56,521 nucleotides of DNA from an uncultured Leifsonia sp. Its GTDB lineage: Bacteria; Actinomycetota; Actinomycetes; Actinomycetales; Microbacteriaceae. The DNA lies in the NCBI RefSeq assembly GCF_945957465.1, contig NZ_CAMFLC010000025.1, positions 1 through 56,521 on the forward strand, given 5' to 3'. Numbering within the stretch: position 1 is the stretch's first letter; the number at the start of each line of letters is the position of its first letter. Under the pieces are notes generated by a model. That model did not search any database and was not told the DNA's origin. It was given only the letters and a program-made list of their open reading frames with translations. A program made the position numbers and the translations under genes. Positions 28,230 through 33,985 of the stretch are shown here, one piece after another.

Positions 28230-28619
28230 GTGGCCACCAAGAAAAAGACAGAGAAAGAGGCCGAGAAGGCGTTGATCACCGCGCGGGCCGCTGTCGACGA
28301 GGCCCAGCGCCTGGTCAAGAAGCTCGACAAGAAGACCCGCAAGGAGGCCGACGAGCTGGAGGCGGCGCTCGCGCAGGCCGCGAGGGATGCCAAGAAGGCC
28401 GCGCAGCGAGCCCGCAAGACCGCCGACCAGGCGGCGAAGGACGCCAAGCAGAAGGCGCAGGCCGCGCGCGAGCACGCGAGCACCGCTGCTGCCGCACCCG
28501 CGGCCGGCACCGGGATCCCGACCTTCCGTGACCTGCGCGACCGGGCCAAGGCGCAGGGCATCCAGGGCTATTCGCGGATGAACAAGGCGCAGCTCTTGCA
28601 CGCCCTCGGCGAGGGGTAG
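28230..28619 (+). CDS. Lys/Ala-rich coiled-coil protein with Rho N-terminal-like domain
   Basis: A 129-aa basic protein. Residues 1-90 are a long Ala/Lys/Glu helix (KKKTEKEAEKALITAR, QKAQAAREHAS) reminiscent of histone-H1-like tails. Residues 95-129 (PTFRDLRDRAKAQGIQGYSR, then MNKAQLLHALGEG) resemble the Rho_N/SAP-like helix-loop-helix that binds nucleic acid. A nucleoid or RNA-binding role is inferred. AAGGAGGAGCA sits right before the GTG start and TATGGT at 28194-28199 is a candidate -10 box. The longer upstream frame overlaps NUDIX 2 and is not credible. Confidence 0.7.
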   Translation: MATKKKTEKEAEKALITARAAVDEAQRLVKKLDKKTRKEADELEAALAQAARDAKKAAQRARKTADQAAKDAKQKAQAAREHASTAAAAPAAGTGIPTFRDLRDRAKAQGIQGYSRMNKAQLLHALGEG

Positions 28620-28682: not shown

Positions 28683-31600
28683 GTGACAGACACCACCGCC
28701 CGGCCGGCGGTCCTCTCCGCTCTGGCTGCGGCCCCGGCGCCGCGGACCCTGATCGACATCCTCCGGGAGCAGGCGGCCCGCAACCCGCAGGCGTCGGCGA
28801 TCGAGGACGCGGCCGGCGCGCTCAGCTATAGGGAGCTCCTGGCCCGTGTCGTCGCCACCGCAGCCCGACTGCACGAGGCGGGAGTGCGCCGCGGCGACCG
28901 GGTCGGCGTGCGGATGACCTCGGGAAGTCGCGAACTCTATCTCGCGATCCTGGGCGTGCTCGCCGCCGGCGCCGCCTACGTTCCCGTCGACGCCGACGAT
29001 CCGCAGGAGCGCGCCGACCTCGTCTTCGGCGAGGCGGACGTCAGCGGTGTGATCACCGACGATGGATACCTGCCGACCGCGTCCGCCGGTGCGGTGGCCG
29101 TCGAGGCCGTGGCGACGGCCGCCCGCGGCGACGCTCCCCACGCCGTGCAGGCCGGCGAGCCCCACCCGAGCACCTCGGGCCTCCCGTTGATCGAACCTCC
29201 GTCACCGGAGGACGACGCCTGGATCATCTTCACCTCCGGGTCGACGGGGACCCCCAAGGGCGTCGCCGTACGGCACCGGTCGGCGGCCGCGTTCGTGGAT
29301 GCCGAAGCCCGGCTGTTCCTGCGCGACGAGCCGATCGGCCCGGGCGACCGTGTCCTGGCCGGGCTCTCCGTCGCATTCGACGCCTCCTGCGAGGAGATGT
29401 GGCTGGCGTGGGGTCACGGCGCGTGTCTGGTGCCCGCGCCGCGTTCGCTCGTGCGCACCGGGATGGACCTGGGGCCGTGGCTCGCGGCCCGCCGCATCAC
29501 CGTGGTGTCGACCGTGCCGACCCTCGCCGCGCTGTGGCCGACGGATGCCCTCGACACGGTCCGGCTGCTGATCTTCGGCGGCGAAGCGTGCCCGCCCGAA
29601 CTGGTCAACCGGCTCGCCGTCGAAGGCCGGGAGGTCTGGAACACCTATGGGCCAACCGAGGCGACGGTGGTGGCGTGCGCGAGCCTGCTGACGGCCGGCG
29701 AGCCGGTGCGCATCGGCCTCCCGCTGGACGGCTGGGATCTCGCCGTCGTCGGGGCCGACGGCGCGCCGGTCGCGGACGGGGAGAGCGGTGAGCTGATCAT
29801 CGGCGGCGTCGGGCTGGCGCGTTACCTCGACCCGGCCAAGGACGCCGAGAAGTACGCACCGCTGCCCTCGCTCGGCTGGCAGCGCGCCTACCGGAGCGGC
29901 GATCTGGTCCGATTCGATCCGGCCGGCCTGTTCTACCTGGGCCGCGCGGACGACCAGGTCAAGGTCGGCGGCCGCCGCATCGAGCTCGGCGAGGTGGAGG
30001 CCGCGCTCCAGCAGCTGCCCGGGGTCTCCGGCGCCGCCGCGGCCGTACGGCGCAGCTCCGCGGGCAACGATGTACTCGTGGGCTACCTCGCCGTCCCCGA
30101 CCGCTCGCTGTTCGACCGGCGGGCCGCCCTGGCCGAGCTTCGCGCGGAACTGCCCGCCGCACTCGTGCCCCTGCTAGCGGTCGTCGACGATCTCCCGGTC
30201 CGGACATCCGGCAAGGTCGACCGGGCAGCGCTCCCCTGGCCGCTGGAGGACACGGACGACGAAGACGCACCCGAGCTCGATCCGGTCTCAGAGGCGCTCG
30301 CCGCCGACTGGCGAAGCGTTCTCGGGCTGCCCGTCGGCGCCCTCGACGACAACTTCTTCGACCTCGGCGGCGGGTCGCTCGCCGCCGCCCAGCTCGTCTC
30401 GCTGCTGCGCAGACGCCATCCGGACATCACGGTCGCCGACGTCTACGCGCATCCCCGGTTCGGATCCCTCGCCGCGGCCCTCGCCGAGAGCTCGCCCTCG
30501 GCCTCCGCCGCCTCCACCCACGTCGTCCCACGGACGCCCCGGCGCATGCAGGTGCTGCAGACCATCCTCGGGGTGCCGCTCTTCATCCTCAACGGGATCC
30601 GCTGGCTGCTCTACCTGCTGACGGCGTCCGCCGTGCTCCGGCCGTTCGGCGGGTTCGGCTTCCTGCCCGAGGTGAATCCGGTCTGGCTCGTGGTCGGGCT
30701 GCTGATCTTCGTCACACCGTGGGGACGCATGGCGATCGCAGTCGTCGCGGCGCGCCTCCTGTTGCTGGGCGTGAAGGCCGGCGACTATCCCCGCGGCGGA
30801 GGGGTCCACCTGCGCTTGTGGCTCGCCGAGCAGGTCGCCCACCAGATCGGGGCCGCCAGCCTCGCCGGCGCTCCGTGGATCAGCTATTACGCCCGTCTGC
30901 TCGGCGCAACGGTCGACCGCGGTGTCGACTTGCACGCGCTGCCTCCGGTGACCGGCATGCTGAGGATCGGCGCCGGCGCCTCCGTCGAGCCGGAGGTCGA
31001 CCTGGCCGGGTACTGGATCGACGGCGACCTCGTGCGCATCGGCGAGATCCGGATCGGCGCGGGAAGCTCGGTCGGCGCGCGAAGCTCCCTCATGCCGGGC
31101 GCCAAGATCGGTCGGGGCGCCACGGTGGCCCCCGGCTCGGCTGTCTTCGGCCGGGTTCCGGCCGGGCAGAACTGGGCGGGATCCCCCGCCGTCCGCGTCG
31201 GGAAGGCCCGGGAATGGTGGCCGGCCGAACGACCGCCGCGGCACACCCGCTGGGTCGCCGCGTACGCGGCGGCCTCCCTGGTCGTGTCCCTGGTCCCGGT
31301 CGTCGCGTTCGCGGTCGGCGGTCTCGTCGTCGCCGCTTTCACCCGGGGCGCCACGACGCTGGCCGGCGCTGTTCCCGGCGCGCTCGCTGCCGTGATCCCG
31401 GCGACCCTCGCCGCCGGGGTGGTGCTCGCCGGTCTCGTCGTCGTCCTCGTGCGGCTGCTCGGCCTCCGCCTTCGCGAGGGTGTCTACCCGGTGCGCAGCC
31501 GGGTCGGCTGGCAGGTGTGGTCGACCGAACGCCTCCTCGACATGGCGCGCACGGTGCTCTTCCCGCTGTACTCGAGCCTGTTCACTCCGCTGTGGCTCCG

Positions 31601-32660
31601 GATGCTCGGCGCCCGCGTCGGGCACGACGTGGAGGCATCCACCGTCCTCCTGCTCCCCGCGATGACGAGGATCCGCGACGGAGCCTTCCTCGCGGACGAC
31701 ACCCTGGTGGCGTCGTACGAGCTCGGCGGCGGCTATGTGCGCGTGGCGGAGGCGGAGATCGGCGCCCGCGCCTTCCTCGGCAACTCCGGCATGGCCGGCG
31801 GGGGCAACCGGGTTCCGCGCGACGGGCTGGTCGCGGTGCTGTCGGTGGCGCCGCGCAAGGCGAAGGCGGGTTCGTCCTGGCTGGGCTCACCCCCCGTGAA
31901 GCTCCGCAGGCGTGCACAGGACGCCGACCTGTCGCGCACCTTCGAGCCGCCGGCCGCTCTGCGCGTCGCTCGCACCGCGTGGGAGCTGCTGCGCATCGTC
32001 CCGGTCTTCGTGACGTGCTCGATCGGTCTCGCCGTCCTCTGGGCACTGGGGGCGCTGACCCAAAGCCTCGGGGCCGGCTGGGCGATCATCCTCAGCGGCC
32101 CCGTGCTCCTGCTCGCCGGCGCGGTCGCCGCTGCGGTGAGCACGGCCGCGAAGTGGGTGCTCCTCGGGAGGCTGAAGCCCGGCGAGCACCCGCTCTGGTC
32201 GTCCTTCATCTGGCGCAGCGAGGTGTCGGACACTTTCACCGAGATGGTGGCCGCCCCCTGGTTCGCATGGTCGGCCGCCGGGACCCCCGCACTGGTCTGG
32301 TGGCTGCGGAGCCTCGGCGCCCGCATCGGCAGCGGCGTCTGGATCGACAGTTACTGGCTCCCGGAGGCCGATCTGGTCGAACTGGGCGACGCATCCACCG
32401 TGAACCGGGGCTGCGTCGTCCAGACGCACCTGTTCCATGATCGAATCATGAGCATGGACGAGGTGATCATCGAGCGCGGCGGAACACTGGGACCGCACAG
32501 CGTCATCCTTCCGGCCGCAGCGATCGGCTCCGACGCGACGGTGGGCCCTGCGTCGCTCGTCATGCGCGGTGAGACCGTGCCCGACCGCAGCCGGTGGAGC
32601 GGCAATCCGATCGGCCCGTGGCGAGACGTGGTGGTACGCGAGTACCGTGCGGTGCGATGA
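28683..32660 (+). CDS. Pls-like membrane NRPS: adenylation, carrier, six membrane helices and three tandem soluble domains
   Basis: A 1325-aa protein with the layout of epsilon-poly-L-lysine synthetase (about 1,300 aa). An adenylation domain spans residues 20-520: IFTSGSTGTPKG (A3), FDASCEEMW (A4), NTYGPTE (A5), YRSGDLV (A7), GRADDQVKVGGRRIELGE (A8) and TSGKVDR with Lys511. The carrier domain has DNFFDLGGGSL with Ser565 for phosphopantetheine. Hydrophobic pairs follow near 630-695, 860-925 and 1105-1165, separating three hexapeptide-repeat (left-handed beta-helix) domains at about 700-850, 930-1095 and 1170-1325. Aligned with GrsA by hand, the specificity residues are D233, A234, E237, S276, I297, G299, T321, V329, V330, K511. 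There is no condensation or thioesterase domain. Likely makes an amino-acid homopolymer or isopeptide; lysine is the predicted monomer. Confidence 0.85.
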   Translation: MTDTTARPAVLSALAAAPAPRTLIDILREQAARNPQASAIEDAAGALSYRELLARVVATAARLHEAGVRRGDRVGVRMTSGSRELYLAILGVLAAGAAYVPVDADDPQERADLVFGEADVSGVITDDGYLPTASAGAVAVEAVATAARGDAPHAVQAGEPHPSTSGLPLIEPPSPEDDAWIIFTSGSTGTPKGVAVRHRSAAAFVDAEARLFLRDEPIGPGDRVLAGLSVAFDASCEEMWLAWGHGACLVPAPRSLVRTGMDLGPWLAARRITVVSTVPTLAALWPTDALDTVRLLIFGGEACPPELVNRLAVEGREVWNTYGPTEATVVACASLLTAGEPVRIGLPLDGWDLAVVGADGAPVADGESGELIIGGVGLARYLDPAKDAEKYAPLPSLGWQRAYRSGDLVRFDPAGLFYLGRADDQVKVGGRRIELGEVEAALQQLPGVSGAAAAVRRSSAGNDVLVGYLAVPDRSLFDRRAALAELRAELPAALVPLLAVVDDLPVRTSGKVDRAALPWPLEDTDDEDAPELDPVSEALAADWRSVLGLPVGALDDNFFDLGGGSLAAAQLVSLLRRRHPDITVADVYAHPRFGSLAAALAESSPSASAASTHVVPRTPRRMQVLQTILGVPLFILNGIRWLLYLLTASAVLRPFGGFGFLPEVNPVWLVVGLLIFVTPWGRMAIAVVAARLLLLGVKAGDYPRGGGVHLRLWLAEQVAHQIGAASLAGAPWISYYARLLGATVDRGVDLHALPPVTGMLRIGAGASVEPEVDLAGYWIDGDLVRIGEIRIGAGSSVGARSSLMPGAKIGRGATVAPGSAVFGRVPAGQNWAGSPAVRVGKAREWWPAERPPRHTRWVAAYAAASLVVSLVPVVAFAVGGLVVAAFTRGATTLAGAVPGALAAVIPATLAAGVVLAGLVVVLVRLLGLRLREGVYPVRSRVGWQVWSTERLLDMARTVLFPLYSSLFTPLWLRMLGARVGHDVEASTVLLLPAMTRIRDGAFLADDTLVASYELGGGYVRVAEAEIGARAFLGNSGMAGGGNRVPRDGLVAVLSVAPRKAKAGSSWLGSPPVKLRRRAQDADLSRTFEPPAALRVARTAWELLRIVPVFVTCSIGLAVLWALGALTQSLGAGWAIILSGPVLLLAGAVAAAVSTAAKWVLLGRLKPGEHPLWSSFIWRSEVSDTFTEMVAAPWFAWSAAGTPALVWWLRSLGARIGSGVWIDSYWLPEADLVELGDASTVNRGCVVQTHLFHDRIMSMDEVIIERGGTLGPHSVILPAAAIGSDATVGPASLVMRGETVPDRSRWSGNPIGPWRDVVVREYRAVR

Positions 32661-33985
32661 CCTCGGCACCCAGCGGCGCTGACGCCGCGACCGCGGCCCA
32701 CGCGTACCTCCCGCGCTCGGGCACGGACGACTTCTCCGTGCTGTCGTACGACCTCGACCTCGACTACAGGGTCGCGACCAACCGGCTGGATGCGACGGCC
32801 GTGATCCGGGCCCGCGCCAACGTGCCCCTGACGGCTGTCGTGCTCGACCTGGTGCATCTGCGGGCCAAGCGGGTACGGCTGGACAGCGACAAGCGCGCCC
32901 GCTTCACGCAGTCGCCCACGCATGTCCGGGTGAAAGCAGCGAAGCCGATACCTGCCGGAACGGAGTTCACGGTCGAGATCGCCTACGACGGCTCCCCCGT
33001 GCCGCGTCGCACGCGCTGGGGCGCACTCGGCTGGGAGGAGCTGACCGACGGCGTCATCGTGGCGTCGCAGCCATCCGGCGCGCCGACGTGGTTCCCCTGC
33101 AACGACCGGCCGTCCGACAAGGCCGCCTACCGCATGACGGTCACGACCGAGCAGGCGTACACCGTGCTCGCCACCGGCGAACTGGTCGACCACAGCGTGA
33201 GCGGGGGTCGCGGCACCTGGACCTTCGAACGCACCGAGCCGACGGCCTCCTATCTCGCTGCCGTGCAGATCGGCCGCTACGTGCTGGAGCCCCGGCGCTC
33301 CGACGGGGTGGAGTGGGTGATCGCCTACCCGCCGGCCCTGGCGCGCCGAGTACTCGCCGACTTCGCACCCGTCGGCCGGATGATCGAGTGCTTCCAGGAG
33401 CGGTTCGGCCCGTACCCGTTCCCCTCCTACACCGTCGTGGTCACCGAGGACCCGCTCGAGATCCCCCTCGAATCGCAGGGTATGGCGACCTTCGGCTCCT
33501 CGCACGTCGACGGACGCGGCGGCTCCGAACGACTGATCGCGCACGAGCTGGCGCATCAGTGGTTCGGGAACAGCGTCGGCGTCGCCTCCTGGAGCGACAT
33601 CTGGCTCAACGAGGGTTTCGCGTGCTACGCCGAGTGGATCTGGTCGGAGTACGCCGGAGGCCCTTCCGCGAACACGCTCGCACGCACCCATCACGCCGCT
33701 CTGCGCCTGAAGCAGAAGGACCTGCAACTCGGCGACCCGGGGGTGGACAGGATCTTCGACGACCGCGTCTACAAACGCGGCGCCTGCTTGCTGCACGCCC
33801 TGCGCCGCCGGCTCGGCGACGACGGCTTCTTCGACCTGTTGCGCGGCTGGTCGGCCACGCGGCGCCACGGAACCGCTTCGTCGGAGGACTTCGAGGCGTT
33901 CGCGGCGGGCTATTCGGACGAGCCGCTGGACAGCTTCTTCCACGCGTGGCTGCGGGACACGGGACTGCCCCCGTTGAGTGCGTGA
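32657..33985 (+). CDS. M1-family zinc aminopeptidase coupled to the Pls-like gene
   Basis: A 442-aa cytosolic metallopeptidase, short for the family because it lacks the long C-terminal helical domain. Zinc ligands are His296 and His300 in HELAHQWFG and Glu319 in NEGFACYAEW. The canonical GxMEN exopeptidase motif is replaced by LESQGMATF, a variation seen in some actinobacterial M1 enzymes, where the Glu may bind the substrate N-terminus. ATGA overlap with the Pls-like gene implies translational coupling. Exo-acting zinc aminopeptidases are known epsilon-polylysine-degrading enzymes in producers, so trimming or self-protection against the polymer is the favoured role (inference). A hairpin terminator follows the stop. 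Confidence 0.88.
   Translation: MTSAPSGADAATAAHAYLPRSGTDDFSVLSYDLDLDYRVATNRLDATAVIRARANVPLTAVVLDLVHLRAKRVRLDSDKRARFTQSPTHVRVKAAKPIPAGTEFTVEIAYDGSPVPRRTRWGALGWEELTDGVIVASQPSGAPTWFPCNDRPSDKAAYRMTVTTEQAYTVLATGELVDHSVSGGRGTWTFERTEPTASYLAAVQIGRYVLEPRRSDGVEWVIAYPPALARRVLADFAPVGRMIECFQERFGPYPFPSYTVVVTEDPLEIPLESQGMATFGSSHVDGRGGSERLIAHELAHQWFGNSVGVASWSDIWLNEGFACYAEWIWSEYAGGPSANTLARTHHAALRLKQKDLQLGDPGVDRIFDDRVYKRGACLLHALRRRLGDDGFFDLLRGWSATRRHGTASSEDFEAFAAGYSDEPLDSFFHAWLRDTGLPPLSA

Follow-up and report, generated by a model that had tools for sequence, protein, structure and literature searches.

Three described systems bear most closely on the locus studied here, and a fourth is known from its own genus. 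The Pls/PldII system of Streptomyces albulus is treated in PMC9223678, which describes PldII as an endo-type, self-protection enzyme located outside the cell membrane and distinguishes it from the exo-acting zinc enzyme, Pld. An operon of pls and a peptidase gene is described for Streptomyces and for Corynebacterium variabile in PMC8117764, which also places Pls homologues in coryneforms, including Microbacterium. The C. variabile synthetase, the gene of which has an adjacent peptidase gene, gave epsilon-polylysine on expression in S. coelicolor, and no polymer was detectable in C. variabile itself (PMC8117764). PosA of Acinetobacter baumannii belongs to the same family; it has an ornithine code, its beta-helices have been modeled as a pseudo-trimer, and its gene is described as a single-gene operon with no obvious co-transcribed neighbors (PMC10522769), whereas the pls gene examined here has a peptidase partner. 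In Leifsonia, epsilon-polylysine clusters of the NAPAA type with a 100% antiSMASH match are given for L. virtsii and L. williamsii (PMC10628120), and L. virtsii appears in the legend of a cluster figure (Fig. 6) for the epsilon-polylysine cluster (PMC12067966). The Leifsonia examples are known from clusters, and the word “peptidase” does not occur in the cluster text of PMC12067966.

The window, i.e. the whole stretch of DNA that was analyzed, comprises 56,521 nucleotides from a Leifsonia genome of 4.06 Mb. The locus within it (Table 1) is very probably a two-gene operon for the antimicrobial polymer epsilon-poly-L-lysine, a product predicted from sequence, in which the peptidase would hydrolyze the polymer and protect the producer. 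It shares its domain order, its lysine pocket and an adjacent, coupled peptidase with S. albulus Pls/PldII (PMC9223678, PMC8117764; PDB 7wew). Its architecture and peptidase neighbor are those of C. variabile Pls, a likeness drawn by description from a system whose product was established by heterologous expression (PMC8117764). The NAPAA clusters noted above share its genus and cluster type. Among the matches listed, the named synthetases nearest to that of the window came from Leifsonia sp. TF02-11 (94% over the best segment) and from L. shinshuensis (93%), which puts the host in Leifsonia or very close to it. Two phosphopantetheinyl-transferase-family matches were present in the genome. A lysine- and alanine-rich small protein (28230-28619) stops 63 bases upstream of pls; its Rho_N match was weak and below the cut-off.

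Table 1. Features of the pls-peptidase locus; positions are those of the window.
Feature	Position	Strand	Basis
pls: epsilon-polylysine-type homopolymer synthetase, 1325 aa, GTG start	28683..32660	+	TIGR02353, Pfam
Adenylation domain, residues ca. 22-520	28746..30242	+	Pfam AMP-binding, pocket reading
Carrier (PP-binding) domain, residues 538-600	30294..30482	+	Pfam
C-terminal polymerizing half: membrane helices and strand-rich C1, C2 and C3	30552..32612	+	TIGR02353, AlphaFold, Foldseek
H1249 codon (Q1247-T-H1249-L-F-H1252-D1253 loop, C3), proposed general base	32427..32429	+	Conservation; function putative
M1 zinc peptidase of 442 aa, resembling PldII in position and relatives	32657..33985	+	Peptidase_M1 / Peptidase_M1_N
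Peptidase HELAH (M1 residues 296-300) to E319, zinc and catalytic motif	33542..33613	+	Invariant columns, 33 aligned sequences

The synthetase matched TIGR02353 (the Pls/PosA family) over residues 624-1310 at 712 bits, compared to a curated cut-off of 423; the E-value of 7e-214 means that this match is not due to chance. Pfam returned AMP-binding (residues 27-380), PP-binding (538-600) and, at 789-821, a single hexapeptide stretch; it detected neither a condensation nor a thioesterase domain in the 1325-aa protein. The best match to a PDB chain was 7wew, the A domain of the S. albulus epsilon-poly-L-lysine synthase (2e-184). For the C-terminal half, the best Foldseek matches in the PDB were hexapeptide acyltransferases, serine acetyltransferase among them (E ca. 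6e-5), the matches being local and of low TM-score. An AlphaFold model of residues 606-1325 (pLDDT 85.5, pTM 0.88) contained three groups of long helices (ca. 620-693, 856-927 and 1091-1160), with a strand-rich segment after each group. By itself, hydropathy gave eight overlapping hydrophobic stretches in this half and was noisier than the model.

These results bear out most of what the preliminary description had said of the synthetase. The coordinates, the length and the ATGA overlap joining the two genes were all as described. The Pfam matches and TIGR02353 agree with the proposed order of adenylation and carrier domains before a Pls-type C-terminal half, with the homology of residues 600-1325 to Pls, and with the lack of condensation and thioesterase domains. 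The central claim, that of a Pls-family synthetase for a cationic homopolymer coupled to an M1 peptidase, is supported by TIGR02353, the lysine-type pocket and the overlap, the product being predicted. Two architectural details fared less evenly. The six transmembrane helices between three domains accord with the model and with the family, the hydropathy count being the noisier measure; of the three hexapeptide-repeat domains, C1 was recovered by Pfam, and the beta-helices of C2 and C3 come from the model only.

TIGR02353 was matched at E 1e-80 or better in 26/28 genomes of the genus, 80/199 of the family and 73/296 of the class, and above the family cut-off in 14/296 genomes drawn across the phylum, with the genome of the window included in each case. 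The pls domain is an ordinary possession of the genus. Two genus genomes of 2.6-2.7 Mb (G298 and G322) had no TIGR02353 match. In a third (locus L209 of G321), pls was broken into several frames beside an M1 gene whose product was 79% identical to the M1 of the window. Corynebacterium glutamicum was the sole one of 14 control genomes with TIGR02353 over the cut-off.

Pairing was scored when a same-strand M1 match started no more than 2.5 kb downstream of pls; relatedness was uncorrected, and the M1 profile was trained on matches within the compared loci themselves. A downstream M1 was found in all 80 named loci, the top-ranking 80 from a total of at least 580, a choice that leans to near relatives (75 of them, with the window, formed the named-relative alignment). 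The class set comprised 82 of 85 rows, the row of the window itself and two partial ones of G008 being omitted; in it, M1 followed 60/63 lysine-code, 4/4 DFEY and 0/1 DFECLS synthetases and 0/14 genes without an A domain. In twelve more loci from the genus and the family, the counts were 7/7 for the lysine code, 0/3 for DFECLS and 2/2 for broken or partial copies. Where a lysine-code locus had an M1, the match started at most 142 bp from the pls stop codon in 141/147 cases; in the remaining six the distance was 367 to 2169 bp, and other genes may intervene. No downstream M1 was found in the lysine-code class loci L176 (2.5 kb covered), L194 and L243 (ca. 6.4 kb covered).

The short M1 protein matched both Peptidase_M1 and Peptidase_M1_N, and its structure model had a pLDDT of 92.8 and a pTM of 0.90. 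HExxH and E319 were invariant among 33 aligned M1 sequences (the window and 32 of the 80 named loci); the zinc motif is intact, and the earlier designation of the downstream protein as an M1 zinc peptidase holds. The pls neighbor in Kitasatospora sp. NBC_00039, annotated as M1, was 49% identical to it, and the placing of PldII in M1 rests on relatives rather than on the sequence of the S. albulus peptidase. The preliminary description had likened the neighbor to an exo-acting zinc aminopeptidase and the pair to a synthesis/trimming module. By position, the neighbor corresponds instead to the endo-type PldII; because the enzyme in that position is described as endo-type and self-protective, and the exo enzyme is Pld, trimming is less likely than protection (PMC9223678).

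A 19-residue hydropathy scan detected no TM-like stretch in the M1 of the window or in 13/13 lysine-type M1 proteins inspected, nine of these being from one class-level genus with genomes of 8-11 Mb; start codons were assigned mechanically, and the export reading is one of hydropathy. The result favors an intracellular role for the lysine-type M1, contrary to the outside location reported for PldII in S. albulus, a different genus. Since an export signal is absent by hydropathy, the overlapping peptidase would most simply act on intracellular polymer, hydrolyzing it and so protecting the producer. A peptidase that trims secreted polymer outside the cell, thereby setting chain length, is unlikely. 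The description of PldII as lying outside the membrane speaks for it, as does the mention, in the conclusion of PMC9223678, of MALDI-TOF analysis of polymerization in repressed strains, but the window and lysine-type proteins lack the TM-like stretch that the same scan located at residues 5-24 of the M1 beside a DFEY-code synthetase (L202). The M1 of another DFEY-code locus (L200) had a similar N-terminus by eye, below the hydropathy threshold.

It is improbable that the M1 is a general aminopeptidase, adjoining pls by an accident of operon structure, and not a polylysine hydrolase. M1 enzymes are common, and 3/63 lysine-code class loci had none in the downstream DNA covered; against this, the genome holds only two M1 genes (the other an 866-aa frame on a separate contig), a downstream M1 recurred in the named and lysine-code class loci (80/80 and 60/63) across many genera, degradation of epsilon-polylysine by the Streptomyces peptidase has been demonstrated (PMC8117764), and translational coupling of pldII with pls is described (PMC9223678). 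A chance neighbor was rejected on the scarcity of M1 genes in the genome and their recurrence downstream of pls among relatives.

The substrate pocket was read by motif position, using a mapping of motifs to code positions taken from GrsA PheA. The residues D233, A234, E237, S276, I297, G299, T321, V329, V330 and K511 give the code DAESIGTVVK; the same motifs of 7wew, in its alignment, give the identical ten letters. As a control for the reading, the A. baumannii homologue (L250) yielded DMEHNGTVSK, the published PosA code. In PMC10522769, the residue at code position 2 is linked to the substrate: Ala to lysine, Met to ornithine, and Phe to diaminopropionate (DAP) or diaminobutyrate (DAB); the window has Ala234 at this position, not Phe, and its code differs from that of PosA. 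Among eight A domains compared, five with the lysine code were 61-75% identical to that of the window, and three with a DFE code were 38-40% identical. A homopolymer of ornithine, diaminobutyrate, diaminopropionate or beta-lysine is very improbable and was rejected on the pocket code and the A. baumannii control: one architecture makes all of these polymers (PMC10522769) and A-domain codes are imperfect predictors, but DAESIGTVVK is neither the ornithine code nor that for beta-lysine (DGESISVVNK; PMC10522769), it lacks the Phe of the DAP/DAB types, and the A domain is closer to lysine-code than to DFE-code domains.

With epsilon-poly-L-lysine as the predicted product, the A domain would activate L-lysine, as the identical pocket code indicates; the activated lysine would be loaded on the carrier domain by established NRPS chemistry; and the membrane-bound C-terminal half, by analogy with characterized Pls, would link lysines via the side-chain amine. 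The locus may be silent, because C. variabile itself gave no detectable polymer.

The condensing step was considered in an alignment of 172 C-terminal halves (the window and 171/174 loci, forming 143 clusters at 90% identity; the broken or partial L209, L210 and L199 were omitted). H1249 was the sole histidine invariant in all 172 (150/150 lysine-code, 22/22 others). D1005 and Q1247 were present in 172/172 rows, and N1034 and D1253 in 171/172, the exception being L176, which aligns with different letters at 1034, 1252 and 1253. All five residues were conserved in 26/26 members of a hand-chosen mixed set that included four added proteobacterial sequences and did not include L176; their equivalents are also retained in L250, the A. 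baumannii homologue that has the PosA code. H709 and H751 were each present in 148/150 lysine-code proteins, so the lysine type offers other candidate bases besides H1249; they occurred in 0/22 and 3/22 of the other proteins, respectively, and hence are not common to the whole family. Residue 1252 was His in 149/150 lysine-code proteins and Glu in 22/22 others. It is not claimed as a determinant of polymer specificity: under the cut-off used, 46 C-terminal positions, this one among them, tell the two groups apart, so the contrast may reflect ancestry alone.

Hexapeptide acyltransferases use a histidine base, situated in a cleft between neighboring subunits. Together with the conservation of H1249, the only histidine found in all 172 sequences, this arrangement suggests one composite condensing site, to which C3 would contribute H1249, Q1247 and D1253, and C2 would contribute D1005 and N1034. 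The published PosA model has three beta-helices packed as a pseudo-trimer with pseudo-threefold symmetry (PMC10522769), and similar elements are seen in the AlphaFold model of the window protein; the three beta-helix segments would thus work as one pseudo-trimeric acyltransferase, not as three enzymes. A residue-level proposal for the condensing site was not found in the literature searched, including the text available of the PosA paper (PMC10522769). Tentatively, and as a possibility that goes further, the three domains of every TIGR02353 synthetase might make up a fused, pseudo-trimeric acyltransferase with two of its three active sites lost and only that between C3 and C2 retained, and the lysine-type M1 might be a cytoplasmic antidote to unexported polymer.

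Several loci among the relatives depart from the common arrangement. In L176 (4557-8633), the A domain has the lysine code and is 61% identical to that of the window, but the C-terminal halves share only 24% identity, and a phosphopantetheinyl transferase adjoins the locus; its sequence has the look of a naturally arisen chimera. Presence of the peptidase may depend on the type of C-terminal half and not on the code of the A domain. In all four DFEY-code class loci (L200-L203), the M1 lay ca. 0.8-0.95 kb downstream; in L200, a frame with a BPL_N match stands between synthetase and M1, and on a Rhodococcus plasmid a BPL-N gene (6489-7229 of L253) likewise comes after the DFEY-code synthetase. 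On a Skermanella plasmid (L251, 845-8275), ectB, encoding diaminobutyrate transaminase, precedes a DFECLS-code synthetase and an S41 peptidase; both the polymer and its peptidase may be of another kind here. Terminal domains that lack a fused A domain were found in 14 class loci, L157 among them; in L157, the one such locus scanned, a same-strand frame reaching downstream past the terminal-domain gene holds an A and a carrier domain. The A. baumannii record NZ_CP104448.1, labeled “plasmid unnamed1” in PLSDB, is chromosome-sized at 4.09 Mb.

The lineage had been put forward as one not known as a producer. Clusters are already in print for Leifsonia (PMC10628120, PMC12067966), and a novel lineage for the system was rejected on their account. 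The gene pair is a further Leifsonia copy of a widespread, already described actinobacterial two-gene unit; its use lies mainly in the selection of producers of epsilon-polylysine from outside Streptomyces. Some of the peptidases have a signal-like N-terminus and others do not, a contrast relevant to the question of whether they protect inside the cell or trim outside it. As one histidine is invariant, a single point mutant could put the unsolved condensation step of the family to the test.
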